From: Deltaproteobacteria bacterium | GTDB lineage: Bacteria > Myxococcota_A > UBA9160 > UBA4427 | Assembly: GCA_019310975.1 (NCBI GenBank) | Contig: JAFDDH010000006.1 | Location: 1-42,912 of the forward strand | DNA length: 42,912 nucleotides | Direction of reading: 5' to 3' | Shown: piece by piece, positions 3,001-41,148 of the stretch | How the letters are laid out: each line of letters starts with the position of its first letter | Position numbering within the stretch: the stretch's first letter is position 1 | Translations under genes and position numbers: made by a program | Notes under the pieces: generated by a model | Seen by the model: only the letters and a program-made list of their open reading frames with translations | What the model was told of the DNA's origin: nothing | The model's database searches: none

Positions 3001-3014
3001 GTCCTCGCATTCAT
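1..3014 (-). CDS. AsmA-family protein, partial (runs off left edge)
   Basis: About 1004 codons are visible without a stop, and the C-terminus lies outside the window. The ATG at 3014 is followed by a basic N-terminus and one membrane anchor (about residues 13-32, rich in Leu/Val). Next comes the AsmA-type opening with IDIDDYREAV and a DVRIEGALEL stretch. Long beta-rich sequence follows, and near residues 800-930 there is an AsmA_2-like C-terminal region containing MDGKLVLYGREGTVAG and INCIIAHLEASQGKVELES. AsmA-like proteins are anchored in the inner membrane, span the periplasm and are implicated in outer-membrane lipid homeostasis or phospholipid transport; the exact role here is inferred. 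The start overlaps the stop of the upstream MFS gene (ATGA, 3011-3014), so the two are probably translationally coupled. Confidence 0.85.
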   Translation of the reverse strand, partial: MNARTRLRKFVRRVVMLLSALLLVVSLAILIATQLIDIDDYREAVAAALTERVQLDVRIEGALELAPSLWPTISVKELLLYNPNTSRWRRPVARIGKLTLKADGLRSLRSRKLILSSAQMEDAELLLVRGLDGSANWQIDADVELADSSAEPTELSLEVGAVEVRDLVIRYDGRPSGLGFMIELDEMQMRAVSTVPPRRITLALEGRYEREDFSLQGSVEWDDDEPILIARGDHRLTLDARLAETSIQMTGSLRDPRGDARADLKLVVRAESLSPLKRRLRILETVDLTGLGPAEATAHLVGGDGRVGLEAIAVQIRGERDETLHLSGVIHDLISERRIRADLRIATHDTARWVERFGLPSPSLGKGQGSAVLHLDAAGLRLNSVQLTLVHREGARVKLEGDLVRAGGAWSGDVGLHIDADSAGQALDLVDETIRRVAHQERASVTLPGAYVLTSTDQALLRIGPATVDARLVEERGGWGLHGLELSAGHEGRDWLHARGEVARVIPEISGIEVRLEAGSDDLLALGQRIGIQVPRVDRLRASGTLRGDPDALRLDELQLVVARGDRLSIGVNGDLALHQDLSDTELKLSVSARDLAELGAVFDRSLWHAGPLELRAHIEGGRDRLFARAIRLRLGDSRLAGDLEWVRGHERPQLVATLDSERIHLRDFGFEPERDAEAARSGAVDFWNQPLPIQGSGEFDLRVALRADRISGREGFDLQDLSLHGSLGPQRVRLADLSMTWDGGRVYVTAEVDGRESPPVGSLRAWVDAAEVKQVLAQLTREDLGRGLVDVRIDLRSRGETLAAMLGRMDGKLVLYGREGTVAGKYSRALQLEIVPRELKDPELGDFERINCIIAHLEASQGKVELESVLFDTPEQQVLASGRIDFAERTLNVLLTPAFKQTIPGRVTAAVRIHGSIDDPRVTPEPLATAGLAAQAIIERALEPVRRWLPGVGEAIDDARRGTNRALDATGVPVTGQIWVPGVDITCEKFLAQESVASALAAR

Positions 3015-4252
3015 GCAGAGGGTACGTCGGAGGATCCCTTCATTGCACGTCTTGTGACAATCAGCCCCAACAAGCCCACGGCGGCGACCCCCGCACACGC
3101 CCTCAGCATGTCGAGGATGACGGCGGCATCACCCACCGAATCGGGGCCTGCCAACCCGCTCAGCCAGAGCAGCAGAAGCCCGTAGCCGAGACGGCCCGCC
3201 AGGCTCTCCAGCGACAAGAAGCTCGCCCGCAACGAAGCGTCGAGACGCGGAGTGACCTCGGCATTCAGAATCACCCGGGCGATGGCCGACTGACAGCTGC
3301 GCAGAACGAGCAACACGGCCACGATCGCCAAGATACCCTGCGCCATGGCGCCGATCAGACCCAGCTGCACGACTGCCGCCGCCAGCAACGCGCCACGTGC
3401 CCCCAGGCGTTCCCTCAACGCGAGACTGTACGCGGCCGCGAAGGCCGCCAAGAGCGTATTGCTCGCGACCACGACACCCGCCACCCAGGGTGTGCGCTGC
3501 ACGTCACGGATGTCGTCGCCCAGCACGGCGGCCAGATAGGGCTGAGCGAACTCCGAGGGAATATGGGCCAGGCTCACCATCACGACCGCGTAGGCGAAGA
3601 GCCAGGCCAGCTCCCGGTCGCGCAGAGTCCGCGTACAGTCGACAAGCTGCCCGAGCAGCCCGCGCCCACTGAAGTCGGCGCGGGCACTGCGCGGCTCGCG
3701 CATCACGAAGGCCAGGGCCAGCAACACCAACGCTGCAGCCAGGCCGAGTGCGTACGCGTACTCGAGCTCCTGCTGCGCGACGGCACCGGCGAGCAGCGCG
3801 CCAAGCGCGCCGGCCGCGTATCCGTTGCGGATCAGGCGCTGCTCGCGCTCGGCAAACTCGGCCTCGCGGCCGAGTCTCGCCAACGTATCGAAGTGCAGCG
3901 CCGTATCCGTACCGGAGATCGACGCGTAGCCAACGCCGAGCGCGATCTGCGCCACCACGAAGGTCGGAAAGCTCTCACCACCCACGAGGAAGAGCACATA
4001 CGAGACCGAGAGGCTGGCCGCCGAAAGGCGCAGCGCCACGGCCCTACCCAGCCGATCGCTCAAATATCCGGAGGGCAGCTCGACGAGCACGACGGTGAAG
4101 TAGTAGATGCTGCCGAGTACCAGAACCTGCCCGATCGAGAATCGGCTGCTGAAGAAGAGAAAGTAGATCGGAGTGAAGAAGTAGACTCGCGAGAGCGGCA
4201 GATACCACTCGTAGATATGCAGGTTGCGCTCCAGCGCGTAGCGATACTCCAA
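3011..4252 (-). CDS. MFS transporter
   Basis: A 413-residue polytopic protein with the usual length and hydrophobicity of a 12-helix major facilitator. The loop after the second helix reads GYLSDRLGRAVALR, matching the MFS motif A pattern (G-x-x-x-D-R-x-G-R), and a long hydrophilic central stretch separates the two six-helix halves. Translation appears to start at TTG 4252, preceded by GGTGGAAG; no ATG or GTG fits the first helix better. The substrate cannot be told from sequence. The last four bases overlap the AsmA-like gene (ATGA), so transporter and AsmA protein form one transcription unit. It is divergent from the translocase-like fusion gene at 4345, with about 90 bp between them. Confidence 0.85.
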   Translation of the reverse strand: MEYRYALERNLHIYEWYLPLSRVYFFTPIYFLFFSSRFSIGQVLVLGSIYYFTVVLVELPSGYLSDRLGRAVALRLSAASLSVSYVLFLVGGESFPTFVVAQIALGVGYASISGTDTALHFDTLARLGREAEFAEREQRLIRNGYAAGALGALLAGAVAQQELEYAYALGLAAALVLLALAFVMREPRSARADFSGRGLLGQLVDCTRTLRDRELAWLFAYAVVMVSLAHIPSEFAQPYLAAVLGDDIRDVQRTPWVAGVVVASNTLLAAFAAAYSLALRERLGARGALLAAAVVQLGLIGAMAQGILAIVAVLLVLRSCQSAIARVILNAEVTPRLDASLRASFLSLESLAGRLGYGLLLLWLSGLAGPDSVGDAAVILDMLRACAGVAAVGLLGLIVTRRAMKGSSDVPSA

Positions 4253-4304
4253 GGTCTTCCACCGGAGGGTCGGCCCGACATCGAGCCGGATCCCGGCCGG
4301 ATGT

Positions 4305-4310
4305 TACACT
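4305..4310 (+). promoter_or_regulatory. candidate -10 element (TACACT) for the translocase-like gene
   Basis: TACACT, preceded by TGT, lies about 35 bp upstream of the GTG start at 4345 in the divergent gap. It matches TATAAT at four of six positions. No good -35 was found at 16-18 bp, so this is only a candidate. Confidence 0.25.
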
Positions 4311-4344
4311 CGCCCCGGCATCCAGGAGCACCTCGATTGATGGT

Positions 4345-7300
4345 GTGGCATCGATGATTGAGCTTCTGTGGCGCGCCGTGCCCGGGGTCCGGCGCACCGA
4401 GCGCGATCGATTCCTCTTCTTCTTTGTGCTGGCCGGGCTCCTCTCGACATCCGCCACCCTCGGACTCGCCGGTAGTGAGGCACTCTTCCTGGCCGGGCTC
4501 GGGCCCGAGCACCTCCCGATGGCCTTCATCCTGGCTTCGGCGGCCACGCTGGTGAGCTCGATCCTCTACGCCATGGTGGTGGGACGCGCACGCAACGATC
4601 GCCTCTTCGTCGTGATGCTCTTGGCCACCGCGGCCACCCTGGTGGTGAACTACCGGCTGCTCGGGGACGGCTCGCCGGTCGTGTTGATCGTGCTCTTCTC
4701 GACCTTCTACGTCACTCAGGCCGTCTTCATCAGCCTGCACTTCTGGACCTTCGCCACCGACTTCTTCGACACGCTGGCCAGCAAGCGGCTCTTCCCTCTC
4801 TTCGCCGTCGGTGCGAGCACGGGCGGCATGCTGGGCGGCATCCTCGCCGTGGGCATCAGCCGCCTCTACTCCGGCGAATCGCTGGTGCTGGTTTGGGCAG
4901 TCGCCCTGCTGGCGACGGCGCTGCATATCCGCCTGGCGCGCAGCCGACTCCTGCGCTGGACCCCTGTCGGCGCGGCGGAGGCGGACGAGAGCTCCGTACA
5001 GGGACTCACGGGCGCGCTGCGTTATGTGACCCGCTCGCGCATGGCCAGCTGGCTGGTGCTCTCCGTGGTGGGCATGGTCTTCTCGCTGACACTGATGCAG
5101 TACGTCTACCTCGACGTCTTCTCGCGCGAGTTCGAGAGTGTCGAGGCGCTCGCCACCTTCTTCGGTCTCTACCTGGCCATCACCAACGGCATCGAGATCC
5201 TGGTGGGCAACGCGCTGACGCCGTGGCTGATCCGGCGCTTCGGCGTCGCCCAGGCGAACCTCGCGCATCCCCTGCTGACGATTCTGACCTTCGTCGCCCT
5301 GGCCGTGGACCCGCGGCTCTGGGTCGCGGTGGCCGCGCGTGCCAATCGGGAGCTGCTGGAGAACGCGCTGGCCGGCCCGGTGCGTGCGCTCTCCTACAAC
5401 GCCCTGCCCCGGCGCTTTCGCGGACGCACACGCGCGCTGCTCGAAGGCGTCGTATTCTTCGCCGCCATGTCGATCGCCGGCGCGGCTCTGATCGGCCTCG
5501 GCGATCAGATCTCGACCACCTGGCTCGCCCTGGTCGGCGGACTGGCCGCGATCCTCTACGCCGGTGCCAATCTGGCGGTGCGGCGCGAGTATTTGAAGAG
5601 CCTCGTCGACGAGCTGCGCCACGGGCGCGTCGACCTCGGCACGGTCGCGTTGGAGCTCGGCAGCCGAGAGCTCAGTGGGCTGGCAAAGCTCTGGGACGAG
5701 ACCATCGACGAGGAGCATGGGCGCATCACCCTGGCGCTGCTCGAGCTGGCCGATCCACTGGCGCGCCGTGGCTTCGGTGAGCACGTCCGCCGCCACGTCC
5801 ACCACCCGGATCCACGCGTGCGCCGGGCCTGCCTCGAGGCGCTGGCCGGGCACGGCGATCCCGAGCTCGACGCACTCCTCGCGGCCGGGCTCGACGACCC
5901 GGACGCACAGACCCGTCGCTGCGCCGCGGCGTTGGTCGGTCAGCTGAGCACACGCTCGGGCGCACTCGCGGAGCGACTGCGCGCGGGGCTGGAGGACCCG
6001 GACGTGGTGGTCCGCGCCGAGGCCGCGCTGCACCTCGGCCCGGAGGGCACACAGAGACTCCGCAGCATGCTGCGCGATCCGGACTCGAATGCCGCCATCG
6101 CGGCCCTCGAGCGCGCGCCGCGCGCCCTCTTGGAGGTGGTGAGCGAGCGGATCGACGCGCCCGAGCCGGCGGTGCGCGCGGCGGTCATCGAATGCTTCAC
6201 GCGCCTGGAAGACCGCGACCACCTGCCCGTCGAGCGCCTGGTTGCGGACCTGCACGATCCCGACGCTGGCGTGCGTCGCGCCGCGGCGGCCGCGCTGGCG
6301 GAGAGACGCGACGACTCTGCGATCCACTCCCTGGCCGCCGCGCTCGACGACGAGTCGCGCCTGGTCCGCACAGAGGCGCAGACCGCGCTGGCCACGCTTG
6401 GCGATGCCGGTGTGCTCGCCGCCGCCCCGCTCTGTCGCGGTTCGCGTACCTGGACTGTGGATGCGGCGCTCGGCACGGTTGGCGCTGCCGGCGGCGCCGT
6501 CGCGCAGGCCCTCCTGCGCCAGTGCTACGCCGACCGCGTCCAGGAAGCCTGGTGGACGCAGCTGGCGATTCGCTGCTGTGGAGAGGACGATGGGCTCGAT
6601 AGCAAATTCCTGCGCGCGGCCCTCGAGAACGCCCACACGCGCGCGCGATTCCTGGCCCTGCGCATCCTCGAGCTGATCGAGGATCCGGCCGTCGTCCGCA
6701 GTGTGGCCCGCGCGCTCGACCGCGCACCCTCGCGCACACGGGCCGATGCGCTCGAGGTGCTCAGCAACCTGGGCGATCGCGACGCGAGCCATCGCTTCGC
6801 ACTCCTGCTCGAGGAACACCCACTCGAGGACAAGCTGCCCGCGCTGGCGGGCTTCGTGAGCGTGCCCAGCGATCTCGATTCGGTCCTGCGCGAGGCGGCC
6901 CGCTCGGCGGATCGCTGGCTGCAGCTGGCTGCGGCCCGCTACCGTGACGGCGCGCCGGAGCCCGGCGACGAGCACGAGGAGGAGGGCCAGATCATGGAAA
7001 GACTTCTCGCCCTGCAGCGCGTCCCGCTCTTCACCCACCTCTCGCTGGAGCAGCTCGAGGTGATCAATCGCCTGCTCCAGGAGGTGCACTTCCTGGCCGG
7101 CGAGGTGATCGTGCGCGAGGGTGAGCCGGGCGGCGACCTCTACATCCTCGTCGAGGGCGAGGTCACCTACTACAAGTCCTGGCGCTCGGTCGGCGAACAG
7201 AAGCTCTCATCCATGCAGCCCGTCGGCTACTTCGGTGAGATGTCGGTGCTCGACGACGAGCCCCGCAGCGTAACGGTGATCGCAAGCCGCGACGCACGCC

Positions 7301-7437
7301 TGCTGGTTCTGGCCGGCGAACGTTTCAAGGAGCTGATCCTGCAGGCACCGGAGATATCCTTCGAGGTCTTCCCCGTCCTGATGCGGCGCATCCGCGAGGC
7401 AGAGGCGCAACTGACGGATCTCAAAGGCGGGACGTGA
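4345..7437 (+). CDS. NTT-like MFS translocase - HEAT repeats - cyclic nucleotide-binding domain fusion
   Basis: A 1030-residue fusion. Residues 1 to about 420 form a many-helix membrane domain resembling the ATP/ADP translocase (Npt/NTT) branch of the MFS superfamily. Residues about 465-835 are tandem alpha-helical HEAT-type repeats, recognisable from recurring DPDxxVRRAAAxAL patterns (e.g. DPDAGVRRAAAAALAERRDD). Residues about 883-1010 form a cNMP-binding domain that starts at VPLFTHLSLEQLEVINRLL and carries a phosphate-binding-cassette-like FGEMSVLDDEPRSVTV with the conserved Glu and Arg. By inference, transport or scaffolding through HEAT repeats could be gated by cAMP or c-di-AMP-like ligands; neither substrate nor ligand is shown. 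Start is GTG 4345 with AGGAG about 16 bp upstream; ATG 4354 is an alternative. NTT-like domains fused to HEAT repeats are, as far as I recall, known in free-living bacteria. Confidence 0.8.
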   Translation: MASMIELLWRAVPGVRRTERDRFLFFFVLAGLLSTSATLGLAGSEALFLAGLGPEHLPMAFILASAATLVSSILYAMVVGRARNDRLFVVMLLATAATLVVNYRLLGDGSPVVLIVLFSTFYVTQAVFISLHFWTFATDFFDTLASKRLFPLFAVGASTGGMLGGILAVGISRLYSGESLVLVWAVALLATALHIRLARSRLLRWTPVGAAEADESSVQGLTGALRYVTRSRMASWLVLSVVGMVFSLTLMQYVYLDVFSREFESVEALATFFGLYLAITNGIEILVGNALTPWLIRRFGVAQANLAHPLLTILTFVALAVDPRLWVAVAARANRELLENALAGPVRALSYNALPRRFRGRTRALLEGVVFFAAMSIAGAALIGLGDQISTTWLALVGGLAAILYAGANLAVRREYLKSLVDELRHGRVDLGTVALELGSRELSGLAKLWDETIDEEHGRITLALLELADPLARRGFGEHVRRHVHHPDPRVRRACLEALAGHGDPELDALLAAGLDDPDAQTRRCAAALVGQLSTRSGALAERLRAGLEDPDVVVRAEAALHLGPEGTQRLRSMLRDPDSNAAIAALERAPRALLEVVSERIDAPEPAVRAAVIECFTRLEDRDHLPVERLVADLHDPDAGVRRAAAAALAERRDDSAIHSLAAALDDESRLVRTEAQTALATLGDAGVLAAAPLCRGSRTWTVDAALGTVGAAGGAVAQALLRQCYADRVQEAWWTQLAIRCCGEDDGLDSKFLRAALENAHTRARFLALRILELIEDPAVVRSVARALDRAPSRTRADALEVLSNLGDRDASHRFALLLEEHPLEDKLPALAGFVSVPSDLDSVLREAARSADRWLQLAAARYRDGAPEPGDEHEEEGQIMERLLALQRVPLFTHLSLEQLEVINRLLQEVHFLAGEVIVREGEPGGDLYILVEGEVTYYKSWRSVGEQKLSSMQPVGYFGEMSVLDDEPRSVTVIASRDARLLVLAGERFKELILQAPEISFEVFPVLMRRIREAEAQLTDLKGGT

Positions 7438-7713: not shown

Positions 7714-8373
7714 TCAATCGAGGCTGCGACCGGTCACGACCTGAAAGAGGATCCCGGCACATGTGTCGATGAGGTCGTCGCGCGAGATGCCCCTGTGCGC
7801 CAGCTCTCCCGCGTGCGCGGAGAGCTTCTCGAGGATCGAACCGAGCGCCGCCGCAGCCGCAAAGGGATGCAGGGTGCGCGATACGTGCGACGCCTCCTGT
7901 GCCTCAAGGATCCGATCCGCCAGCCGCTCCAAGACCGGCGCAAGCGCATCGCGGCGAACCTTCTGGAAACGCCGATCCCCGTTGTCGGCGGCGAGATTGC
8001 GGATCAGCAGTACCGCGTGATGGGTCTCCCAGTGCTGGAGAAAGGCCTCCGCGATGCCACGCGCGGTGTCGAAGCCCCGAGCTCCGTCCCAGCTGCCGTC
8101 GATCTGCTCGAGGACCGCCGGCATCTCCTCGATGGCCTGGCGCGCGAGCTGCAGCGTCGCCTCCTCGACATCCTTGAAGTAGTGATAGAAAGTCGCCGGC
8201 GAGGTCTCGGCCTTGCGCGCGATCTCGACGACCGAGATGTCGAGCACGCTCCGGTCGCGCAGCAGCTGGGCGGTGGCATCCAGCAGGCGCTGCCTCGTCT
8301 TGAGCGCGCGCGGCCCGAGCACGCGGCCGGTCTGCGCCATCACCCGCCCGGGCTGCGATCCTTGGCTTCCCAC
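7714..8373 (-). CDS. TetR-family transcriptional regulator
   Basis: A 219-residue protein with a TetR_N helix-turn-helix at about residues 25-75 (RQRLLDATAQLL, then IARKAETSPATFYHYFKDVE) and an all-helical ligand-binding C-terminal domain. Start is GTG 8373, because AGGAGGGAG lies 3 bp upstream; ATG 8340 has no ribosome-binding site. The gene is divergent from an acyl-CoA dehydrogenase, and the 235-bp gap contains two copies of a palindrome that recurs before three other catabolic transcription units here. I therefore infer autoregulation and control of the acyl-CoA region, probably relieved by an acyl-CoA or related pathway ligand. Regulators of this size often control fatty acid or steroid degradation (for example KstR-type proteins), but the operator here differs from the KstR and KstR2 consensus sequences. 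Confidence 0.9.
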   Translation of the reverse strand: MGSQGSQPGRVMAQTGRVLGPRALKTRQRLLDATAQLLRDRSVLDISVVEIARKAETSPATFYHYFKDVEEATLQLARQAIEEMPAVLEQIDGSWDGARGFDTARGIAEAFLQHWETHHAVLLIRNLAADNGDRRFQKVRRDALAPVLERLADRILEAQEASHVSRTLHPFAAAAALGSILEKLSAHAGELAHRGISRDDLIDTCAGILFQVVTGRSLD

Positions 8374-11036: not shown

Positions 11037-13523
11037 TCAGACCGTGATCTCTTCGGCTTCCAATCGATCGATCTCGGCCGCGTCGAGGCCCAGGATCGTC
11101 GACAGGATCTCGCGCGTATGCTCGCCCAGCCGCGGCCCGGCTGCCCGGAGCCCCCCGGGCGTATCCGAGAGCCGGAAGCCCGAGCGTTCGTAGAGCAGCT
11201 CGCCCAGGGACTCGTGGGGCAGTGGCGTGAAGTGGCCGCGCGCGGCCAGCTGCGGGTCGTCCACCAGCTGAGCGAAGTCGCACACCAATCCCGCCTCGAC
11301 GCCGACCGCTTGGAGCGCCTGCACGAGTGCTTCGGCCGGATGAGCGGCCGTCTGCTCGGCTACGCTGGCGTCGAGCTCGTCGACGTGAGCCAGCCGTGCC
11401 TCGAGCGATTCGAAGCGCTCGTCGGCCACCCACTCACGCGTCTCGAATACTTGGCAGAGCGCGCGCCACTGCGAGTCGTCGAGGGCCGCAATCGCGATGA
11501 AGCGCTCCCGCCCTGCCTCGGCGTCGGGCCTGCAGGGATAGATGCCGTGGGGCGCGGCGATCTCGCTGCGGTTGCCCATGCGCTCCATCACCTCGCCACT
11601 GGCACTGCAGCGAACGATCATCTCGGCCAGGCTGTAGACAGCTGTCTCGATCTGCGAAACGTCGATGGCCTGGCCCTCACCGGTGCGGCGCAGATGCAGC
11701 AGAGCGGCCAGCAGCGCCGAAGCGACGAAGCGGGGCGCGAGCGAGTCGGTGATGGTCGCGTACGGACCGAGGGCCTCCTGACCCGGCCAGCCGGTCATGT
11801 GGTTGAAGCCCGCGATCGCGGCCCCCTGGCCGCCGAAGCCCGGATAGCTGCGCTGCGGCCCGGTCTGGCCGAAGAGGCATCCGCTCACCATCACCAGGTC
11901 GGGGCGGCGCGCGCCGAGCACCGGATAGTCGAGGCCCCAGCGCTCCATCACGCCCGGCGCGAAATTCTCCGTCACGACATCCGCCCACTCGTCGATGAGC
12001 CGCAGCACGAGCGCACGACCCTCGGGCTGCTTCATGTTGATGGCGAGGCTCTGCTTGTCGGGGTTCAGCAGCGCGAACATCGGCGCCCGCTCGAAGATGT
12101 CGGGCTCGTCCCGATTGTCCTTGGTGACGTGCATGATGCGCAGAAAATCGGGGCGCTTGGCGGACTCGATCCGGATCACGTGGGCGCCCTGCTCGACCAG
12201 ATAGCGCGTGGCCACCGGACCCGCGGCGCCCGAGCCGAGCTCGAGCACCTTGAGTCCCTCGAGCACGCCCCGCTCGCCCACGTGCGTGGCGAGGCGGATC
12301 CGATCATCCGGCACCGGCTCACTCGGCCGCCGCGGCTGGCCGGCGAGCTCCGCGCGCAGCTCGGCGTCGTGCTCGCCCGGTCGCGGGGCCGGGCCGCGCA
12401 GCCCGATCTCACAGCGACTCGACCGGGCGAAGAAGCCCGGGTACTCGAGGACCGCATCGAGCCCCGGCGGCTCGACGCGCACGAAGAGATCGCGCGAGCG
12501 CAGCTGAGGCTGCTCGAGGATCTCGCGCGCATTGTTGCAGGGGGCCAGCAGAATGCTGCGCGCCAGTGCCTGCTCGTAGAGCTCGCGCATGCTCTTGCTG
12601 GCGAAGAAGGCCGCAAAGACCTCCTCGAGCCGATCGAGCTCGTCGTCCGAGAGCGTGAGCGGGCTGTAGCTCGCCCAGTCCATCTCCTGCAGCCAGGCCG
12701 GAGCCATCGCGCTCTCGGCCATGTATTCGACGCTGGCGACCAGGCTCCCGACGCGCGCGGGCCCGCCCCGCAGGCCGTACGACACGAAGCCGTCCTTGCA
12801 GCGCCAGATCTCGCGCGTTCGCCCGGTCCGGTAGCCGCTGCGCTGGCCCAGCCGCCCGGTCAGCGCGTATTGGCCGGCGCCTGTGATCAGCGTCGCCAGC
12901 TGGCACTCGTGAGCCGAGACATCCACGCCCTGTCCACGCCCGAGGTCACGCCGCGCGTAGAGGGCGAGCAGGATGCCCACCACCGCCTCCGGGCCGGCGT
13001 GCATATACGCCGTCGGCAGGCTCGAACGCAGGGGCGGACGCGCCGGGTCGCCGGTCATGAACGCATTGCCCCCCATCGCCACACAGATGAGGTCGTGCGC
13101 GCTTCTTCCCGCATACGGACCGTGCTGACCGAAGGGCGTGATCGCGCAGTAGACGAGACCCGGGTGCTCGTCCGGAAGCCCCGCCTCGAGTGCCGAACGG
13201 CCGATCCCCCAGCCCTCCATCGTGCCCGGTGCGAAGGACTCGAGCACGACGTCCGCACTGGCCACGAGCTGCCGGAAGGTGTCGCGGTCGGCATCGCTGG
13301 CCGCCAGATCGAGCAGCATGCTGCGTTTGCCCGGATTTGCGGCCAGCCAGGGAAGGCTTCGCTCGGGTGCCTCGATCCCAGCTACGAAGGGGCCCCTTCG
13401 CCGCTCCGCGTCCCCGCCCGGCGGCTCGATCTTGACGACATCGGCCCCGAGGTCGGCCAGCACCCGGCCGGCCAGGAAGCCGCGTTCGTCGGTCAGATCG
13501 AGCACGCGATAGCCGCTGAGCAC
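11037..13523 (-). CDS. tandem (fused) CaiB/BaiF-type CoA transferase
   Basis: An 828-residue protein consisting of two class III CoA-transferase domains in one chain. Domain 1 spans about residues 1-410 (opening GYRVLDLTDERGFLAGRVLADLGADVVKIE, shown here as landmarks only at each end). Domain 2 begins near residue 420 at LEGLKVLELGSGAAGPVATR. Typical family sequences occur in both: VLESFAPGTMEGWG and VTENFAPGVMERWGLDYP, each followed by a GQxGP motif. Around the active site the halves read GVDVSAHECQLA (about residue 196) and AIDVSQIETAVY (about residue 617), with Glu at the position where formyl-CoA transferase has its catalytic Asp; an alignment would be needed to confirm this. Predicted to move CoA between carboxylic acids. 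GTG start with AAGGAGA 8 bp upstream. Confidence 0.88.
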   Translation of the reverse strand: MLSGYRVLDLTDERGFLAGRVLADLGADVVKIEPPGGDAERRRGPFVAGIEAPERSLPWLAANPGKRSMLLDLAASDADRDTFRQLVASADVVLESFAPGTMEGWGIGRSALEAGLPDEHPGLVYCAITPFGQHGPYAGRSAHDLICVAMGGNAFMTGDPARPPLRSSLPTAYMHAGPEAVVGILLALYARRDLGRGQGVDVSAHECQLATLITGAGQYALTGRLGQRSGYRTGRTREIWRCKDGFVSYGLRGGPARVGSLVASVEYMAESAMAPAWLQEMDWASYSPLTLSDDELDRLEEVFAAFFASKSMRELYEQALARSILLAPCNNAREILEQPQLRSRDLFVRVEPPGLDAVLEYPGFFARSSRCEIGLRGPAPRPGEHDAELRAELAGQPRRPSEPVPDDRIRLATHVGERGVLEGLKVLELGSGAAGPVATRYLVEQGAHVIRIESAKRPDFLRIMHVTKDNRDEPDIFERAPMFALLNPDKQSLAINMKQPEGRALVLRLIDEWADVVTENFAPGVMERWGLDYPVLGARRPDLVMVSGCLFGQTGPQRSYPGFGGQGAAIAGFNHMTGWPGQEALGPYATITDSLAPRFVASALLAALLHLRRTGEGQAIDVSQIETAVYSLAEMIVRCSASGEVMERMGNRSEIAAPHGIYPCRPDAEAGRERFIAIAALDDSQWRALCQVFETREWVADERFESLEARLAHVDELDASVAEQTAAHPAEALVQALQAVGVEAGLVCDFAQLVDDPQLAARGHFTPLPHESLGELLYERSGFRLSDTPGGLRAAGPRLGEHTREILSTILGLDAAEIDRLEAEEITV

Positions 13524-13641
13524 GGCGCCTGTCTCCTTGTCGTCGTCGATCTCTCATGGATCCTTGGGGCCGCACCCGTGGCCCCTCGCCCCGAATCGAC
13601 CCATGGCGCGAGAAACGCTCTGGCCGACCCCAGAGGCAAAG

Positions 13642-32354: not shown

Positions 32355-33614
32355 ATGCGGGAATCGAGTGTGAGAGTGAGCGCAAAGATCATCGCCCCCG
32401 TCGCGGTCCTGGCCGCCGCGGGCGCCATCGTGGGCCTGATGCTGCTGGCCCGACCCAAGGTGGAATCGACCCGCCCGACCCCGCATGCCCCGCTGGTCCA
32501 GGTCATCCGCACCACCGTGGGCAGCGTGAAGCTCACGGTCAGCGCCCAGGGCACCGTGGAGCCCCGCACCGAGAGCGAGCTGGTGACCGAGGTCGCCGGC
32601 CGCATCGTCTGGGTCTCCCCGAATCTGGCCAGCGGCGGTTTCTTCGCCCACGACGAGGTCCTGGCGCGCATCGATCGACGCGACTACGAGGTCGCCCTCG
32701 AGGGTGCGCGCGCCGCCCAGGCGCGGGCGGAGAGCGACCTGACCCACGCGGACGCCTCGCTCAAGCGGCAGCGCTCGATGCGCGAGCGAAAGGCCTCGAG
32801 CCGCCAGGCACTGGACGACGCCGAACACGCCCGCGCCATCGCGGCGGCCGGCGTGCGCGAGGCGCGGGTCGCCGTGCGCCGCGCCGAGCTCGATCTCGAG
32901 CGCACCGAGGTCAGCGCGCCCTTTGCCGGGCGCGTGCGCACCAAGCACATCGACGTCGGTCGCTATGTGGGCCCCGGCGTGCCCGTCGCGCGTATCTACT
33001 CGATCGACTACGCCGAGGTGCGGCTGCCGATCAGCGACGCCGATCTCGCCTACCTGGAGCTGCCAGAGGGACGCCAGCTCGGCGTCCAGCGGGCGGAGGA
33101 AGGCGACCCCACGCCCGCGAGCAGCGCGCAGCCGGCCGTCGAGCTATCGGCCGAGTACGCGGGCCGGCGACATGCCTGGACGGCGCACGTGGTGCGTACC
33201 GAGGGCGCGCTCGACGCGCGCACGCGCATGCTGAATGTGGTCGCGCGCGTCGACGACCCCTACGGCCGCGTGAGCGGTGCGCAGCGTTCTCCCCTGCCGG
33301 TCGGTCTCTTCGTCGACGCCGAGATCGAGGGCATCGAGGTCGACGGTGTCTATGCGCTTCCGCGTGTCGCCATACGCCGCGGTGACACCGTCTGGGTGGT
33401 CGACGAGGAGAGTCGGCTGCGCGTGCGCCGGGTGGAGGTGCTGCGCTCCGGTCGCGAGCAGACATGGATCCAGGCCGGCCTCGAGCCGGGTGAGCGGGTC
33501 GTGACTTCGGCGCTCGAGACGGTCACGGAGGGTATGACGGTCCGCACCGTCGAGCTCCCCAGTCGCGCCGACGCCAGGGCGGGCGCCCCGCACGCGGAGG
33601 GCCCTGCCTCGTGA
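32355..33614 (+). CDS. RND efflux periplasmic adaptor (HlyD/AcrA type)
   Basis: A 419-residue membrane fusion protein. It has an N-terminal anchor (AKIIAPVAVLAAAGAIVGLM), a lipoyl-like half (VTEVAGRIVWVSPNLASGG), a coiled-coil hairpin rich in Ala, Arg and Glu (ALEGARAAQARAESDL), the second lipoyl half (VSAPFAGRVRTKHIDVGRYV) and beta-barrel/MP domains to the end. It connects the inner-membrane permease to an outer-membrane channel not encoded in this window. I prefer ATG 32355: an in-frame TTG at 32229 would lie inside the operator cluster and add a non-protein-like stretch. Its stop overlaps the start of the permease gene (GTGA, 33611-33614). Confidence 0.87.
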   Translation: MRESSVRVSAKIIAPVAVLAAAGAIVGLMLLARPKVESTRPTPHAPLVQVIRTTVGSVKLTVSAQGTVEPRTESELVTEVAGRIVWVSPNLASGGFFAHDEVLARIDRRDYEVALEGARAAQARAESDLTHADASLKRQRSMRERKASSRQALDDAEHARAIAAAGVREARVAVRRAELDLERTEVSAPFAGRVRTKHIDVGRYVGPGVPVARIYSIDYAEVRLPISDADLAYLELPEGRQLGVQRAEEGDPTPASSAQPAVELSAEYAGRRHAWTAHVVRTEGALDARTRMLNVVARVDDPYGRVSGAQRSPLPVGLFVDAEIEGIEVDGVYALPRVAIRRGDTVWVVDEESRLRVRRVEVLRSGREQTWIQAGLEPGERVVTSALETVTEGMTVRTVELPSRADARAGAPHAEGPAS

Positions 33615-36600
33615 ATGGAGCCATCGCCTGGTTCGCGCGCAATCACGTCGCCGCCAATCTGCTGATGGTCGTGCTGATCGTGGGCGGGGTGGCCACCATG
33701 CCCACGCTTACGCAGGAGCTGATCCCAGAGATCTCCCTGGACTTGGTGAGCGTGAGCACCCTCTACCCGGGCGCTTCCCCGCAAGAGATCGAAGCCTCGA
33801 TCACCAACCGGATGGAGGAGCAGCTACAGGGCCTGCAGGGGGTGAAGCACATCCATTCGACGTCGGCGGAGGGCGCGAGCGCCGTCACCGTCGAGCTGCT
33901 GGCGGGCGAGGACGTGCGTGCCCGCCTCGATGACATTCGCGCAGCCGTGGACGCCATCGATACGCTGCCCGACGAGGCTGAGGAGCCCACGGTCAAGCAG
34001 ATCGAAATCTCGACCCTCGTGCTCAACGTCGCCGTAGCCGGGACCGCGGACGAGTGGGCCCTCAAGCGGATCACGCAGCAGGTTCGCGACGAGATCGTCG
34101 CCCTGCCCGGCATCACGGAGGCCGACCTCGAGCTGGCCCGCCCCTACGAAATCTCGATCGAGGTCTCCGAATCGGCGCTGCACCGCTTCGGACTCACCTT
34201 CGACGACGTGGTGCACGCCGTGCAGCGCTCGAGCCTCGACCTGCCGGGTGGCTCACTCAAGACGAAGTCAGGTGAGATCCTGCTGCGCGCCAAGGGACAG
34301 GCCTACCAGGCGCGCGACTTCGAACAGATCGCTCTGGTGTCGCGCAGCGACGGCACCCGACTGGCGGTCGGAGACGTGGCGCGCGTAGTCGACGGCTTCG
34401 AGGAGTCGGACCAATCAGCCACCTTCGACGGCGACCCGGCCATGATGGTGCAGGTCTATCGCGTCGGGGCCCAGAAGGCACTGCAGATCTCGGCCACCGT
34501 GCGGGCGTACGTCGACGAGGCCTCGGCCCGCATGCCGGACGGCGTACACGTGACCGTCTGGCACGACAGCTCCGAGGTACTCGGAGATCGTCTCGACACC
34601 ATGGTCCGCAACGCGCGTGGCGGATTCATCCTGGTCGTGCTGGTGCTCGCCCTCTTCCTGCGCTTGCGGCTCGCGCTCTGGGTCAGCCTCGGCATCCCGA
34701 TCTCATTTCTCGGCGCCGTGCTGCTCATGCCCGTGATGGGCATCTCGATCAACTTCATCTCGCTACTCGGCTTCATCGTCGTGCTCGGCATCGTGGTGGA
34801 TGACGCCATCGTGGTCGGCGAGAACGTGCACACCCACCAGGCCCAGAGCGGAAAGAAGCTATTGGGGGCGATCCGAGGCACCCAGACGATCGTCGTGCCG
34901 GTCACTTTCGGCGTCCTCACCACGATGGCGGCCTTCGCGCCGCTGCTCTTCCTGCCGGGTCCGATGGGCCGAATCACTCGCATTCTGCCGATGATCGTGA
35001 TCGCCTGCCTCTTCTTCTCGCTGGTCGAGTCGATGTTCGTTCTGCCCGCGCACCTCGGACGCGGCCGCAAGCCGCTCGACCACCAGCCCACAACGGCGGT
35101 CTCGCTGGGCTGGCGCAACTTCCAAGACCGCATTGCGCGCGGTCTGGCGTACGTGATCGGCGACCTCTACCGCCCGACACTCGAGCGCGCCATCGAGTGG
35201 CGCTACTTGACCGTGGCCGTCGCGGTCGCAGTCTTCAGCATCTCGGCCGGGCTCGTCGGCGCGGGCTGGCTCAAGTTCGTCTTCCAGGAGAACGTGGAGG
35301 CCGACTTCATCGTCGCCGACGTCACCATGGCTCAGGGCACCCCCGCCGACATGACGGCCGCCGCGGTCGAGCAGATGCAGCGGGCGTTGGAGGAGATCCG
35401 CCGGGAGATCGACGCGGCGGCGGGTCCGGGCGACCAGCCCAGCATCTTTCCGCACGTCATGACCACCATCGGTCAGCAGCCCTTCGCCGATGGACGCGGT
35501 GGCTTCGGCGGCAGACGCGGCCGCAGCACCAGCAACGTCGGCGAGGTCCAGGTCGAGGTGCTCGGCTTCAGGCAGCGTGACGTCGAGGTCTCCGACATCG
35601 CCCAGCGCTGGCGGATTCGCGTCGGCGACATCCCCGGCGCCGTCAAGCTCGACTTCAAGTCGCAGCTCATGGACATCGGCGGGCCGATCGAGGTGGAGCT
35701 CAGCGGGCACGATCTGCGCCGCCTCCAGCTCGCCGCCGGCGAGGTCCGGCGCCTGCTTGCGACCTATCCGGGCTTGTACGACATCTCCGACTCGTTCCGC
35801 GGCGGCAAGCAGGAGCTCGAGTACCAGATTCTGCCATCCGCCGAGTCCTTGGGGCTCACGCTCGCGGATCTCGCGCGCCAGCTACGGCAGGGTTTCTACG
35901 GTGCCGAGGTACAGACCATCCAGCGCGGGCGCGACGAGGTGAAGGTCATGGTCCGCTACCCGGCCGAACAGCGCCGCTCGCTCGCGGACGTCGAGCAGAT
36001 GCGCATCCGCAGTGCCGACGGCAGCCAAGTGCCCTTCTCGCGGGTCGCCCGGGCCAGCCTCGGCACCGGCTACGCGACCATCCGTCATGTCGATCGACGG
36101 CGTGTCGTGAGCGTGACGGCCGAGGTCGATCTCGCCGCGGCGAACGCCAACGAGATCGTGCGCCAGCTGAAGAGGGGCCGGCTCGACGAGGCCATCGCGC
36201 CCTACCCGGGCGTCCGCTACTCGTTCGAGGGTGAGCAGGCCGAGCAGCGGGAGTTCCTGCGCGCCCAATTGATCGGAATGGGGGCGTCCCTTCTGGTGAT
36301 CTACGTCCTTCTCGCCGTCCCACTCGGCTCCTACCTGCAGCCCCTCATCATCATGTCGGCGATCCCCTTCGGCTTCGTGGGCGGGGCATGGGGCCACCTC
36401 TTGCTCGGCTACAACCTCACGATGTACTCAGTGATCGGGCTGGTGGCGCTGGCCGGCATCGTGGTGAACGACAGTCTCGTGCTCGTCGACTACGTGAACA
36501 AGCTGATCGAGAAGGGCATGGCACTCGAAGAGGCCATCGTCGAGGCGGGCCAGGCTCGCTTCCGGGCCATCCTGCTCACGTCGCTCACGACCTTCGTCGG

Positions 36601-36853
36601 CCTCAGCCCGCTGATGCTCGAGACCAGCATGCAGGCCCGCTTCATGATCCCGATGGCGATCTCGATCGCGTTCGGCGTGCTGCTCTCGAGCTCGGTCATC
36701 CTCTTCCTGGTGCCGGTGAGCTACCGCGTGCTGGAAGACGTGAAGCACCTCTTCGGCGCGCGCCCGCGCACGGGTCCCAGCGAGGGCCCGAACGTCATCC
36801 GGCATCCGGCGGTGATCGAGGAGCCGGACGAGATCGGGACGCGGCGCGCCTAA
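33611..36853 (+). CDS. RND efflux permease (HAE1-like)
   Basis: A 1080-residue resistance-nodulation-division permease of normal length with twelve expected helices and two large periplasmic domains. Helix 4 carries GIVVDDAIVVGENV, with the proton-relay pair Asp397 and Asp398. The N-terminus FARNHVAANLLMVVLIVGG and the YPGASPQEIE segment are typical. A Gly/Arg-rich loop (about residues 625-640, GRGGFGGRRGRS) in the second periplasmic domain is unusual. GTG start, translationally coupled to the adaptor. It expels small molecules by proton antiport; the substrate is not predictable. Controlled by the divergent TetR gene at 31579. Confidence 0.92.
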   Translation: MNGAIAWFARNHVAANLLMVVLIVGGVATMPTLTQELIPEISLDLVSVSTLYPGASPQEIEASITNRMEEQLQGLQGVKHIHSTSAEGASAVTVELLAGEDVRARLDDIRAAVDAIDTLPDEAEEPTVKQIEISTLVLNVAVAGTADEWALKRITQQVRDEIVALPGITEADLELARPYEISIEVSESALHRFGLTFDDVVHAVQRSSLDLPGGSLKTKSGEILLRAKGQAYQARDFEQIALVSRSDGTRLAVGDVARVVDGFEESDQSATFDGDPAMMVQVYRVGAQKALQISATVRAYVDEASARMPDGVHVTVWHDSSEVLGDRLDTMVRNARGGFILVVLVLALFLRLRLALWVSLGIPISFLGAVLLMPVMGISINFISLLGFIVVLGIVVDDAIVVGENVHTHQAQSGKKLLGAIRGTQTIVVPVTFGVLTTMAAFAPLLFLPGPMGRITRILPMIVIACLFFSLVESMFVLPAHLGRGRKPLDHQPTTAVSLGWRNFQDRIARGLAYVIGDLYRPTLERAIEWRYLTVAVAVAVFSISAGLVGAGWLKFVFQENVEADFIVADVTMAQGTPADMTAAAVEQMQRALEEIRREIDAAAGPGDQPSIFPHVMTTIGQQPFADGRGGFGGRRGRSTSNVGEVQVEVLGFRQRDVEVSDIAQRWRIRVGDIPGAVKLDFKSQLMDIGGPIEVELSGHDLRRLQLAAGEVRRLLATYPGLYDISDSFRGGKQELEYQILPSAESLGLTLADLARQLRQGFYGAEVQTIQRGRDEVKVMVRYPAEQRRSLADVEQMRIRSADGSQVPFSRVARASLGTGYATIRHVDRRRVVSVTAEVDLAAANANEIVRQLKRGRLDEAIAPYPGVRYSFEGEQAEQREFLRAQLIGMGASLLVIYVLLAVPLGSYLQPLIIMSAIPFGFVGGAWGHLLLGYNLTMYSVIGLVALAGIVVNDSLVLVDYVNKLIEKGMALEEAIVEAGQARFRAILLTSLTTFVGLSPLMLETSMQARFMIPMAISIAFGVLLSSSVILFLVPVSYRVLEDVKHLFGARPRTGPSEGPNVIRHPAVIEEPDEIGTRRA

Positions 36854-36882
36854 GCTACGCCCCCGGCTTCGCCTGCACGTGA

Positions 36883-36907
36883 GGCCCGGTCCGGTGAGAC
36901 CGCGGCC
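36883..36907. terminator. possible terminator between convergent genes
   Basis: GGCCCGGTC (36883-36891) can pair with GACCG-C-GGCC (36898-36907), giving nine base pairs with one bulged C around a 6-nt loop. It lies in the 86-bp gap between the RND permease stop and the convergent ABM gene. There is no T tract. Confidence 0.35.
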
Positions 36908-36939
36908 CAGCGGCAAGACCGTGCAAAGGGCCACACCTT

Positions 36940-37308
36940 CTATGCCCGCTCCTCGTCCGTGAAGAAGTCGGCCCGCGGCTTTCCCTGCGGATCGTAGACC
37001 GGCTCGCGCAGGTCCACGCGGTATTTCGCGATGTCGAGACCCACGATCCCGTAGGCCGAGATGCAGTCGCGCATGGCCGGGTAGTGGGGACTCTGGAAGT
37101 GCGCCTCGAGGTGTTCGCGGCTCGACCAGCGCTCGAAGACATGGATGCGCCCGGGCAGCAGTGGATCGGCGCTCCACACATATTCAGAGCAACCGGGCAT
37201 CGCACGCGTGGCGGCCATCGGACGCTTCGCCGCCTCGAGGGCGGCGTCTCGCCGGCTCGGATCCACATCCACGGTGCCCGCTATCACGATCTCCTGCAAC
37301 GCCTCCAA
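36940..37308 (-). CDS. ABM-domain (YgiN-like) monooxygenase
   Basis: A 122-residue protein of the antibiotic biosynthesis monooxygenase fold, a ferredoxin-like dimeric alpha/beta domain. Landmarks are IVIAGTVDVDPSRRDAALEA, the MPGCSEYVWSADPLLPGRIH strand pair, FERWSSREHLEAHFQSPHY (characteristic WxSxExLxxHxxxPH pattern), and a divergent C-terminal tail of about 30 residues beyond the fold. Relatives include quinol monooxygenases and proteins of unknown function. Start is TTG 37308, because AGGAGGGGAG lies immediately upstream. It stands alone, convergent with the RND permease and divergent from the phosphatase-like gene. Confidence 0.8.
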   Translation of the reverse strand: MEALQEIVIAGTVDVDPSRRDAALEAAKRPMAATRAMPGCSEYVWSADPLLPGRIHVFERWSSREHLEAHFQSPHYPAMRDCISAYGIVGLDIAKYRVDLREPVYDPQGKPRADFFTDEERA

Positions 37309-37423
37309 GCTCCCCTCCTCTCAACGTACGCTGGACCGACGCAAGCATAGTCGCGTGCGCACGCGGCTTCGATGCCAACCTGAAGTTGGTACGCTTGGTC
37401 GGCGATTCGAGGGGAGAGGACGG

Positions 37424-39382
37424 ATGAGCACGTCGAGCCAGATCCTGGGGCCTGAGCGTCAGCGAGACCAGGGGCTCGGCGCTGCGCAGGCCGAGTCCGG
37501 AGCGCGGGCGATTCTGAGCCTGCTCACCAACCCTGTGATCGGGCCACAGGTGGACCTCATCGCCACCTATCGCCATCAGACCGACGACGCCGACGGCGCC
37601 TACGAGGTCTGGTCGGCGCGCGGCATGGTTCGCTTCCAGCGCGTGATCGGTGCCGATGGCGGATTGGACTTCGAGGTGCTCGAGATCGTGGGCCAGAATC
37701 CGATCCAAGATCAGGACCCCGACGCGCTCCGCACGCTCGCGGCCGAGCGCCACGCCGCAGAGGCGTCCGGCTTCCAGGCCGATGACCCGAGGCGCCGATT
37801 CATCGCACCCGAGCACCAGAGCCATCCCTTCGCGTACGAGCGAATCGCGCAGCTCTTCGACTCGCCGCACGCACCGGATCTGATCCTCTCGCCCTGCGAC
37901 TGGTCATTCGGCCTACAAAAGGGTCAGCACGGCGGCCTGCACGTTCGCCAATCGCGTGCGCCGCTCTGGATCGCGGGCCGCGGCGTGGTGCCCGGCATCC
38001 ACGACCTTGCCGCGCGCGCTGTAGACCTGGCGCCCACGCTGCTCTCAGCACTGGGTTTCCCAGCCATCGACGGACGCGACGCCACCGGGCGCACATCCAG
38101 CGAGCGCGGCGTGGCTCCCGACGTATTGCTGCGCCGGCAGGACGGCGAGGTACTCGAAGTTCTGCTCGATCGCGCGCCCGAGCCGCCCCGCTACCTCTAC
38201 ATCTTTCTATTGGACGGCCTGCATCCGACCGAGCTCGAGGACCGGCTGGAGAACGACGCCGACGCCCTGCCGAATCTGCGACGTCTGCGCGAGCGCGCGG
38301 CGGTGCTGGCCTCCGGCAGCATCGTAAACTTCCCGTCCATCACCTGGCCCAGCCACACCACGATCGGAACTGGGGCCTGGTGCGGACACCACGACGTGGT
38401 CAATCCGAGCTACTACCTGCGTGAGAAGCGAGAGACTATTTCACCTCAGGGTCAGCAGCTCGAGACCGAGGGCTTCTCGAGCCGGGATGTAGAATCCATC
38501 TACGAGGCCTTCCGGCGGGTACGCGGCAGCGACTGTCTCTCCGCCGCCATCTATGCGCCCTTCGGACGCGGTGCCGACCACGCGGTGCTCGAGGGGCGCA
38601 ACCTCTGCGATCGAGGCCATCTGCGCGCACTGAACAACGAGCTCGCGCGCGACCAGGATCCGCGTTGGCACGAGGAGGGTTGCGCGGACGCTCAGCGCGA
38701 ATCCACGTTGGACACTCGCGGCGTCGCCCAGATTATCGACCTCTTTCGCCGCGACGACGTTCGCTCACCGGATCTGGTCTTCCACGAGCTGATCCTCACC
38801 GACGGCGTCGGCCACGAGTATGGACCGCACTCGGACGGCCTGCGCTCGGCCCTCGACGAGAGCGACCGGCGCATCGGGCGCGTACTGAACCTGCTCGACG
38901 AAGAGGGGCGCTTCGAGGACACGCTCTTCGTCGTCACCGCAGACCACGGCATGGCGCCTCAGGACACCACGCTGCGCGCCAACCCGGCGCGCCACGTGCT
39001 CGAGGCCGGACTCTCCGCGGTGGTCCACGACAATATGATCTGGCTGCTCGATCTGCAGATCGAAATCGAGCGCGCCCCCGACGGCCGCACGGCGCGCGTC
39101 TTCGTGCGCGACAACGATGCTCTTCCCAGTGGCGCACATCCGCCCGTGGAGGGGGCACGGGTCGATCTCTTCCAGCACCGCGACGCACGAACACCCGAGC
39201 GCCTCGCGCGTGGCCGTACCGGTCCGGGCGGTGTCTACGGCTTCTCGACCCCCGCGGAGATCCCCTCCAGCCAGCTCGTGCTCGACATTTCGGCCGACGG
39301 CTACAATCGACGCCGGCTTCACTTGGACGGACAATCGATGGTGCCCGACCTGCGAGCCATCCTCTACGGAGAGCAAGCTTGA
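37424..39382 (+). CDS. tandem alkaline-phosphatase-superfamily protein (NPP/phosphodiesterase-like)
   Basis: A 652-residue protein without signal peptide or membrane helix. The C-terminal domain (about residues 255-560) is an intact type I phosphodiesterase/nucleotide pyrophosphatase-like core: Asp264 in FLLDGLHP, nucleophile candidate Thr307 in FPSITWPSHTTIGTG, Asp460 and His464 in TDGVGHEYGP, and Asp507-His508 in VTADHGM. The N-terminal half (about 20-240) also looks like part of this fold, with GQHGGLHVRQSRAPLWIAG followed by DLAPTLLSALGFP as in sulfatases and phosphomutases, but with no nucleophile seen. The extreme C-terminus (about 585-652) is beta-rich. ATG 37424 follows AGGGGAGAGG. 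Its stop overlaps the next gene's start (TTGA), so the product probably works with the alkylsulfatase-like lipoprotein. Confidence 0.8.
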   Translation: MSTSSQILGPERQRDQGLGAAQAESGARAILSLLTNPVIGPQVDLIATYRHQTDDADGAYEVWSARGMVRFQRVIGADGGLDFEVLEIVGQNPIQDQDPDALRTLAAERHAAEASGFQADDPRRRFIAPEHQSHPFAYERIAQLFDSPHAPDLILSPCDWSFGLQKGQHGGLHVRQSRAPLWIAGRGVVPGIHDLAARAVDLAPTLLSALGFPAIDGRDATGRTSSERGVAPDVLLRRQDGEVLEVLLDRAPEPPRYLYIFLLDGLHPTELEDRLENDADALPNLRRLRERAAVLASGSIVNFPSITWPSHTTIGTGAWCGHHDVVNPSYYLREKRETISPQGQQLETEGFSSRDVESIYEAFRRVRGSDCLSAAIYAPFGRGADHAVLEGRNLCDRGHLRALNNELARDQDPRWHEEGCADAQRESTLDTRGVAQIIDLFRRDDVRSPDLVFHELILTDGVGHEYGPHSDGLRSALDESDRRIGRVLNLLDEEGRFEDTLFVVTADHGMAPQDTTLRANPARHVLEAGLSAVVHDNMIWLLDLQIEIERAPDGRTARVFVRDNDALPSGAHPPVEGARVDLFQHRDARTPERLARGRTGPGGVYGFSTPAEIPSSQLVLDISADGYNRRRLHLDGQSMVPDLRAILYGEQA

Positions 39383-41148
39383 TCCGACCCACACACTTCG
39401 CGGCGGCGTACCTGGCGCTCGTCGCTGCCGGCCTGCTCTGGATCGTGGGCTGCGAACGCACACCCGATCGCATCGAGGTCGCCGACACGAAGGTCGAGCT
39501 GGTCGATGGTGCGCACCCTCGGCTGCGCGCCCACTCGGCGGAGTTCGAGCGGCGAATCTACGAGGTGACCGAGGGCGTGCACGTCGCCGTGGGCTATGGG
39601 CTGGCCAATTCGATCCTGCTCGTGGGCGATGGCGGGGTCGTGATCGTCGACACAATGGAGAGCACGGAGAGCGCCAGCGCGGTGATGGCCGACTTCCGCA
39701 AGATCAGCCAGGCACCCATCGCGGCGCTGATCTACACCCACAACCACGCCGATCACGTATTCGGTGGGCGCGGTTTCGTGCCCGAGGGCGAGGTCGACGT
39801 CTACGCCCACGAGACGACCAGCGACTACATCGATCGGCTCATTGGGGTCGTGCGCCCGGTGATCAGTACGCGGAGTGGGCGCATGTTCGGCAGCGTGCTG
39901 CCCGCGGAGGGACCGGATGCCGTGGTGAACGCCGGCATCGGTCCGCGCCTCGCGCTCGGCCCCGACAGCGGCACGCCGAGCCTGATTCGCCCCAACAAGA
40001 CCTTCCGCGATCGCATGCAGCTGGAGATCGCAGGCATCCGCATCGAGCTGGTGCACGCACCGGGCGAGACCAACGACCAGCTCTTCGTGTGGCTCCCCGA
40101 AAAGCGCGTGCTCTTGCCGGGCGACAATATCTATCGGGCCTTCCCCAATCTCTATACGATCCGCGGAACGCCCTACCGCGACGTGCTCGACTGGGTGGCG
40201 AGCCTGGACGCCATGCGCGCGCTGCGACCCGAGCACCTCGTACCCAGTCACACGCGACCGCTATCCGGCGAGGTCGAGGTACAGACTGTCCTGACCGCCT
40301 ATCGGGACGCAATCCAGTACGTGCACGACCAGACCGTGCGCGGCATGAATGCGGGACTCACACCCGATGAACTCGTCGGGGTTGTCGCGCTGCCGCCCCA
40401 TTTGGCCGACCACCCCTATCTCGAGGAGTTCTACGGGACTGTGGAGTGGAGCGTGCGCTCCGTCTACGACGGCTATATGGGATGGTTCGACGGCGACGCG
40501 GCCACGCTCTCACCCGAGCCTCCGGATGTTCGCTCGCGTCGCCTGGTCGAGCTGGCCGGCGGTGCCGAGGCGATGCGCGGGGCCGCCCGAGCGGCCCTCG
40601 ATGCCGGCGACCATGCCTGGGCGGCCGAGCTCGCCCGCCACGCAATGCGCGCCGATCCCGATGATGGCGAAGCCCGACGCCTCGTGGCCGCCGCCTACCG
40701 GGCACTCGGCCGTCGCAGCAAGAGCCCCAACGGTCGCAACTACTACCTGACCCAGGCCGGCGAGGTCGAGGGCACGATTGGGGCCACAGCGCCGCAGATC
40801 AATGAGTCCGTCCTGCCGCTGATCCACGAGATCCCCATCGACCGTTTCCTGGCCGCCATGCCGAGCAGCCTCGACCCCAGTTTGGCTGGCGATGTGACCA
40901 TGACGGTGGGATTCCACTTCACCGACGTCGACGAGCACTACACGCTTGCACTGCGTCGCGGAGTGCTCGAGATGCAACCCGGTGCACCGACGGCGCAGGA
41001 TGTCGGTATCGTGGTGGACAGCCAGACCTGGCGCGAGGTGGTGACCGGTTTCCGTAGCCCCGCCGTCGCCTTCGCATCCGGGGACGTCGAGATCGAGGGC
41101 AGCGCGCTCGATCTGGTGCGCTTCCTTTCCTACTTCTCACGCAGCTAG
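39379..41148 (+). CDS. alkylsulfatase-like metallo-beta-lactamase lipoprotein (SdsA1-type)
   Basis: A 589-residue protein with a lipoprotein signal (AAAYLALVAAGLLWIVGC, lipobox Ile-Val-Gly-Cys) and a metallo-beta-lactamase domain with His121-x-His123-x-Asp125-His126 in THNHADHVFGG. Further family segments are APGETNDQLFVWLPEKRVLL and AFPNLYTIRGTPYRDVLDW, then the alkylsulfatase dimerisation domain (DELVGVVALPPHL onwards) and a C-terminal SCP2-like lipid-binding domain. This matches type III linear alkylsulfatases, which hydrolyse sulfate esters of fatty alcohols. The signal suggests a membrane-attached periplasmic enzyme. Start is TTG 39379, in a four-base TTGA overlap with the upstream gene and preceded by GGAGAG. 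Divergence in the second metal motif leaves room for another ester substrate. Confidence 0.87.
   Translation: MIRPTHFAAAYLALVAAGLLWIVGCERTPDRIEVADTKVELVDGAHPRLRAHSAEFERRIYEVTEGVHVAVGYGLANSILLVGDGGVVIVDTMESTESASAVMADFRKISQAPIAALIYTHNHADHVFGGRGFVPEGEVDVYAHETTSDYIDRLIGVVRPVISTRSGRMFGSVLPAEGPDAVVNAGIGPRLALGPDSGTPSLIRPNKTFRDRMQLEIAGIRIELVHAPGETNDQLFVWLPEKRVLLPGDNIYRAFPNLYTIRGTPYRDVLDWVASLDAMRALRPEHLVPSHTRPLSGEVEVQTVLTAYRDAIQYVHDQTVRGMNAGLTPDELVGVVALPPHLADHPYLEEFYGTVEWSVRSVYDGYMGWFDGDAATLSPEPPDVRSRRLVELAGGAEAMRGAARAALDAGDHAWAAELARHAMRADPDDGEARRLVAAAYRALGRRSKSPNGRNYYLTQAGEVEGTIGATAPQINESVLPLIHEIPIDRFLAAMPSSLDPSLAGDVTMTVGFHFTDVDEHYTLALRRGVLEMQPGAPTAQDVGIVVDSQTWREVVTGFRSPAVAFASGDVEIEGSALDLVRFLSYFSRS

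Follow-up and report, generated by a model that had tools for sequence, protein, structure and literature searches.

A deltaproteobacterial fusion of an NTT-type membrane domain, HEAT repeats and a cyclic-nucleotide-binding domain in which the ATP/ADP residues of AtNTT1 are replaced

Results

The locus and its reading frame

The window, i.e. the whole stretch of DNA analysed, comprises 42,912 nucleotides of a Deltaproteobacteria bacterium (assembly GCA_019310975.1, contig JAFDDH010000006.1). Positions 4345-7437 of the plus strand hold an open reading frame (ORF) of 1030 amino acids counted from a GTG start, with the stop codon TGA at 7435-7437; the ATG at 4354 is probably the actual start rather than the GTG at 4345. 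The gene lies between a divergently transcribed MFS transporter gene (3011-4252, minus strand; Pfam MFS_1, 48.7 bits) and a convergent gene for a TetR-family regulator (7714-8373, minus strand; assigned by Pfam), and seems to stand alone. Pfam, codon usage and conservation support the gene call. ORF length alone is no proof, since the high G+C content also keeps an antisense frame of 1009 amino acids (4060-7089, minus strand) open across the gene. Codon usage prefers the plus frame, and its protein shares 42-53% identity with relatives in other genera over residues 2-1025 approximately. Conservation at full protein length together with codon usage thus identifies the plus frame as the gene, and the antisense frame, which loses on codon usage, was rejected as a high-G+C effect. 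Apparent N-terminal extensions of six relatives (L019, L025, L028, L037, L038 and L049) are arginine-rich shadow frames and were likewise discarded as not real.

As the original prediction had it, three domains are fused in one chain: the Pfam families TLC, HEAT_2 and cNMP_binding all score above their cut-offs and follow each other in this order. The ORF thus encodes a real fusion of an NTT/TLC-type membrane domain, a HEAT solenoid and a cyclic-nucleotide-binding domain (cNBD).

The membrane domain is homologous to NTT proteins

The membrane domain covers residues ~20-433 (4402-5643, plus strand). Pfam TLC (PF03219) matches residues 118-317 with 30.7 bits (cut-off 21); a TLC match at E<=0.001 is obtained for 14 of 17 sequences, the score lying slightly under the curated cut-off in some orthologues. 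A single-sequence search of PDB sequences detected the plastid carrier AtNTT1 (9j3j) at 7e-5. With a profile of the orthologues the E-values were 4.3e-8 for AtNTT1 and 1.2e-5 for chlamydial CpNTT1 (9j3n), and profile-profile alignment of the membrane domain with the solved ATP/ADP carriers by hhalign gave an E-value of 2.7e-9 over 198 columns. As a control, the same membrane-domain profile was compared by hhalign with the neighbouring MFS transporter, and no match was found. Hydropathy averaged over 21 sequences predicts about 10-12 hydrophobic segments, presumably transmembrane helices, compared with 12 in the MFS-type fold typical of the NTT/TLC family. By sequence comparison the domain is therefore an NTT homologue, and the predicted alignment to this family was obtained. 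The match covers the central part; towards either end of the domain, alignment is obtained through intermediates only.

The ATP/ADP residues of AtNTT1 are replaced throughout the clade

Mutants of AtNTT1 are impaired in ADP binding (K155), ATP binding (K527) or translocation (E245) (PMC3306366). Residue letters of AtNTT1 and CpNTT1 were taken from PDB chain alignments, in which the chain numbering plus 84 gives the native positions of the K, E, E and K residues. E385 of AtNTT1 is included here as the fourth residue tied to ATP/ADP binding or transport. The alignment contained the fusion protein, 16 orthologues, 17 more distant NTT-HEAT proteins and the two reference carriers.

In the fusion protein F61 (4525-4527), Y122 (4708-4710), Q252 (5098-5100) and M375 (5467-5469) stand opposite K155, E245, E385 and K527, respectively. 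The partners of K155 and E245 are less certain than those of E385 and K527, because one of three aligner modes leaves K155 unmatched (the other two place F61 there) and a gap of approximately four residues near E245 makes its exact partner uncertain. At all four positions the original residue is missing from the whole set of 16 orthologues in the alignment. An acidic residue occupies the 385 position in every one of the 17 other NTT-HEAT proteins (16 Asp, one Glu); E245 is retained as Glu in six of them, K527 as Lys in one and K155 as Lys in none. Among the polar residues common to AtNTT1 and CpNTT1, K270 (K147 in the fusion protein) is the only one unchanged clade-wide. Conservative exchanges occur at D137 and D519 (Asp or Glu in the clade) and at K511 and K515 (Arg). 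Apart from these, dozens of polar positions in the membrane domain do not vary across the clade, a pattern that a functional site of another kind would be expected to show.

The clade-wide replacement of all four residues makes canonical ATP/ADP exchange unlikely. This comparison of substrate residues did not bear out the designation "nucleotide translocase" in the original prediction, as all AtNTT1 residues mapped by mutation are replaced. Such losses speak against ATP/ADP exchange only; they name no substrate and imply no transport.

The HEAT solenoid

The HEAT-repeat solenoid extends over residues ~440-880 (5662-6984, plus strand) and is recognised by Pfam HEAT_2 (76.4 bits, five stretches) and HEAT. 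The repeats had been predicted correctly, and their extent, given as about 370 residues, was somewhat low, since helices were found between residues ~440 and ~880. AlphaFold was run with an alignment of two rows, the fusion protein and its relative L010. Of the three-domain prediction called for originally, this yielded a confident HEAT part (pLDDT about 70-91, residues ~441-690) and poor confidence for the other two domains: the membrane domain is modelled as all-helical with a pLDDT of about 40-42, and the cNBD reaches about 35. A Foldseek search was uninformative, with nothing returned at E<=0.001.

The cyclic-nucleotide-binding domain and the cyclases of the genome

The cNBD occupies residues ~885-1005 (6997-7359, plus strand). 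Pfam cNMP_binding (PF00027) matches residues 914-999 with 72.5 bits against a cut-off of 27.5, and PDB matches are of the PKA/PKG/CRP type. The phosphate-binding cassette FGEMSVLDDEPRSVT (7231-7275) contains E965 and R974, both invariant in 21 of 21 sequences, so that the expectation of a C-terminal domain equipped with the residues for cyclic-nucleotide binding held. The residue following the cassette Arg is Ser in 17 and Thr in four of these sequences, and the clade consensus reads FGE(M/I)A(I/V)L...(P)R(S/T)AT. In the genome Pfam recognises seven class III cyclase domains above its cut-off, so a cyclic-nucleotide ligand could be made by the cell. The canonical cassette and the cyclase domains together render cyclic-nucleotide binding plausible; as to cAMP or cGMP, the cassette would be compatible with either, its sequence being unable to tell the ligands apart.

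Distribution, phylogeny and constraint

Within the class, the fusion gene is present in 30 of the 91 genomes; since the other 61 lack it, the gene is dispensable for the group. All 24 carriers with an uninterrupted copy keep the three domains, as judged by full-length comparison and, for six more, by Pfam; the remaining copies are cut by contig ends. A scan of genome contigs for relatives returned one record, L010, from a Deltaproteobacteria MAG, and none were found in viral contigs. More distant NTT-HEAT proteins of the phylum (e.g. L050, L065 and L062) show no cNBD in the frames examined, and no split cNBD gene was seen among the ORFs downstream of L050. In a midpoint-rooted tree of the fusion proteins and more distant NTT-HEAT proteins of the phylum, the fusion proteins form a distinct, well-supported clade (99/99) with the long-branched L050 as its sister (99/98). 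Median identity to the protein of the window is 52% for the membrane domain, 38% for the HEAT part and 53% for the cNBD; the higher conservation of membrane domain and cNBD places both ends of the protein under constraint. The genome size of 5.35 Mb is no more than compatible with a free-living way of life.

No conserved operon naming a substrate was found around the fusion gene in the carriers. In 13 of 30 carriers the gene that immediately follows the fusion encodes an SRPBCC (PF10604) protein (L071, L073-L078, L080, L082, L083 and L144; also L125:6726-7178). This gene is conserved and mostly single-copy, and in the genome studied here it is unlinked to the fusion (contig C160). It occurs in 62 of the 91 class genomes, carriers or not, and was rejected as a dedicated partner. 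Because it is also frequent where the fusion is missing, it is kept as a lead rather than as a proven partner.

Two further NTT-type proteins were noted. The same genome encodes a second one, L004, on a short contig (G000:C15:657-1844, minus strand), with 27% identity to the NTT domain of the fusion and scores of 29.7 bits for TLC and 34.9 bits for MFS_1. The other, L146 (G039:C92:2530-3825), is an additional copy of the NTT domain in the relative G039, 46% identical and truncated by the contig end.

Discussion

Fusions of NTT, HEAT and cNBD parts are not new. Major, Embley and Williams (2017, PMC5381601) describe them in free-living bacteria, Deltaproteobacteria included, in bacteria broadly and in oomycetes, and propose cAMP control of ATP uptake. 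The protein described here shows this set of domains, and their order, in one chain, and it may also fall in the monophyletic NTT-HEAT clade of that study. The same text calls the function of these fusions unknown, in line with the original prediction, which held them to be uncharacterised. Our search for later experimental work found none after 2017; a 2019 review repeats the earlier account. In the portions of the 2017 paper available we found no discussion of a loss of ATP/ADP residues. What is added here is this loss, the invariant cassette and the distinct, supported clade.

Among known systems, AtNTT1 and CpNTT1 share the membrane domain with the fusion, most clearly over the middle helices, but are single-domain proteins that keep K155, E245, E385 and K527, all replaced in the fusion. 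L050, L065 and L062 combine membrane domain and HEAT repeats as the fusion does, at 24-33% identity; unlike the fusion, they have Asp or Glu at the 385 position, lack a cNBD in the frames read and fall on separate branches of the tree. The cNBD shares fold family and phosphate-binding cassette with PKA/PKG, CRP and the MloK1 channel, in which it is joined to kinase, DNA-binding or channel parts, whereas here its partners in the chain are the HEAT repeats and a membrane domain of the NTT type.

We favour, with a probability of roughly 45%, a cyclic-nucleotide-regulated membrane transporter whose activity is most likely not ATP/ADP exchange. The N-terminal NTT/MFS-type domain would probably move a solute across the inner membrane, and the cytoplasmic HEAT solenoid would form its connection with the cNBD at the C-terminus. 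Once occupied by cAMP or cGMP from the class III cyclases of the cell, the cNBD and with it the solenoid might shift in conformation, with consequences for transport or for a partner docked on the solenoid. This reading builds on the conserved order of the domains, the homology to NTT proteins, the cyclase domains, the intact cassette and the replaced ATP/ADP residues; ligand binding, gating, transport and substrate are inferred. Weighing against it are the low model confidence for membrane domain and cNBD, the lack of an operon pointing to a substrate and the 61 class genomes without the gene. Given the lost exchange residues, the branch probably moves or senses something other than ATP/ADP. 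A more far-reaching version, in which an NTT branch gave up nucleotide exchange and became, in free-living hosts, a second-messenger-gated transporter of another solute, controlled post-translationally by cAMP or cGMP with the HEAT part as a lever, is in our judgement somewhat unlikely.

The loss of the known transport residues would suit a protein that no longer transports, its NTT-type domain serving as anchor or receptor and its HEAT and cNBD parts as a cytoplasmic signalling platform. The cytoplasmic part is indeed large and conserved, and HEAT repeats are known for protein-protein interactions. An anchor, however, would need fewer constraints than are seen in a membrane domain conserved as strongly as the cNBD and rich in invariant polar residues, and we regard this reading as unlikely.

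Similarly little credence is given to a true transporter of nucleotides (ATP, another NTP or NAD) tuned by cAMP to the energy state. A free cell finds little external ATP to import, and the replacement of all four residues in the fusion clade tells against it; the 17 other NTT-HEAT proteins keep the 385 position acidic and in part E245 and K527, but not K155. In its favour are the NTT homology by orthologue profile and hhalign, the carriage of other nucleotides or NAD by some NTTs and the published proposal of Major et al. (2017, PMC5381601). Fusion, NTT alignment and cNBD residues of the original prediction stand; its "nucleotide translocase" finds no support, and gating by the cNBD is putative.

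That the cNBD is structural or degenerate, fails to bind cyclic nucleotides and leaves regulation of the protein to other means has precedent in some cNBD-fold proteins (FNR type), which bind no cNMP, and is quite improbable here in view of the invariant Glu and Arg and the cassette consensus of the clade.

Bacterial cAMP is mostly known to act via transcription factors. Should the favoured reading of a cyclic-nucleotide-regulated transporter be true, a secondary transporter under the immediate control of a cyclic nucleotide would be unusual in bacteria. The clade offers a compact test of the roles of NTT-type domains outside parasites and plastids, a question since 2017. The general suggestion made then is turned into two testable predictions, i.e. 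no ATP/ADP exchange, from the residue losses, and cyclic-nucleotide binding, from the intact cassette.

Other genes in the window

Elsewhere in the window, positions 11040-13553 (minus strand) encode a single chain of 838 amino acids that contains two domains of CoA-transferase family III (572 bits). At 33611-41145 (plus strand) a gene for an AcrB-type RND pump is followed by genes for a type I phosphodiesterase/sulfatase-like protein and an alkyl-sulfatase-like protein of the metallo-beta-lactamase fold, the latter two abutting each other.
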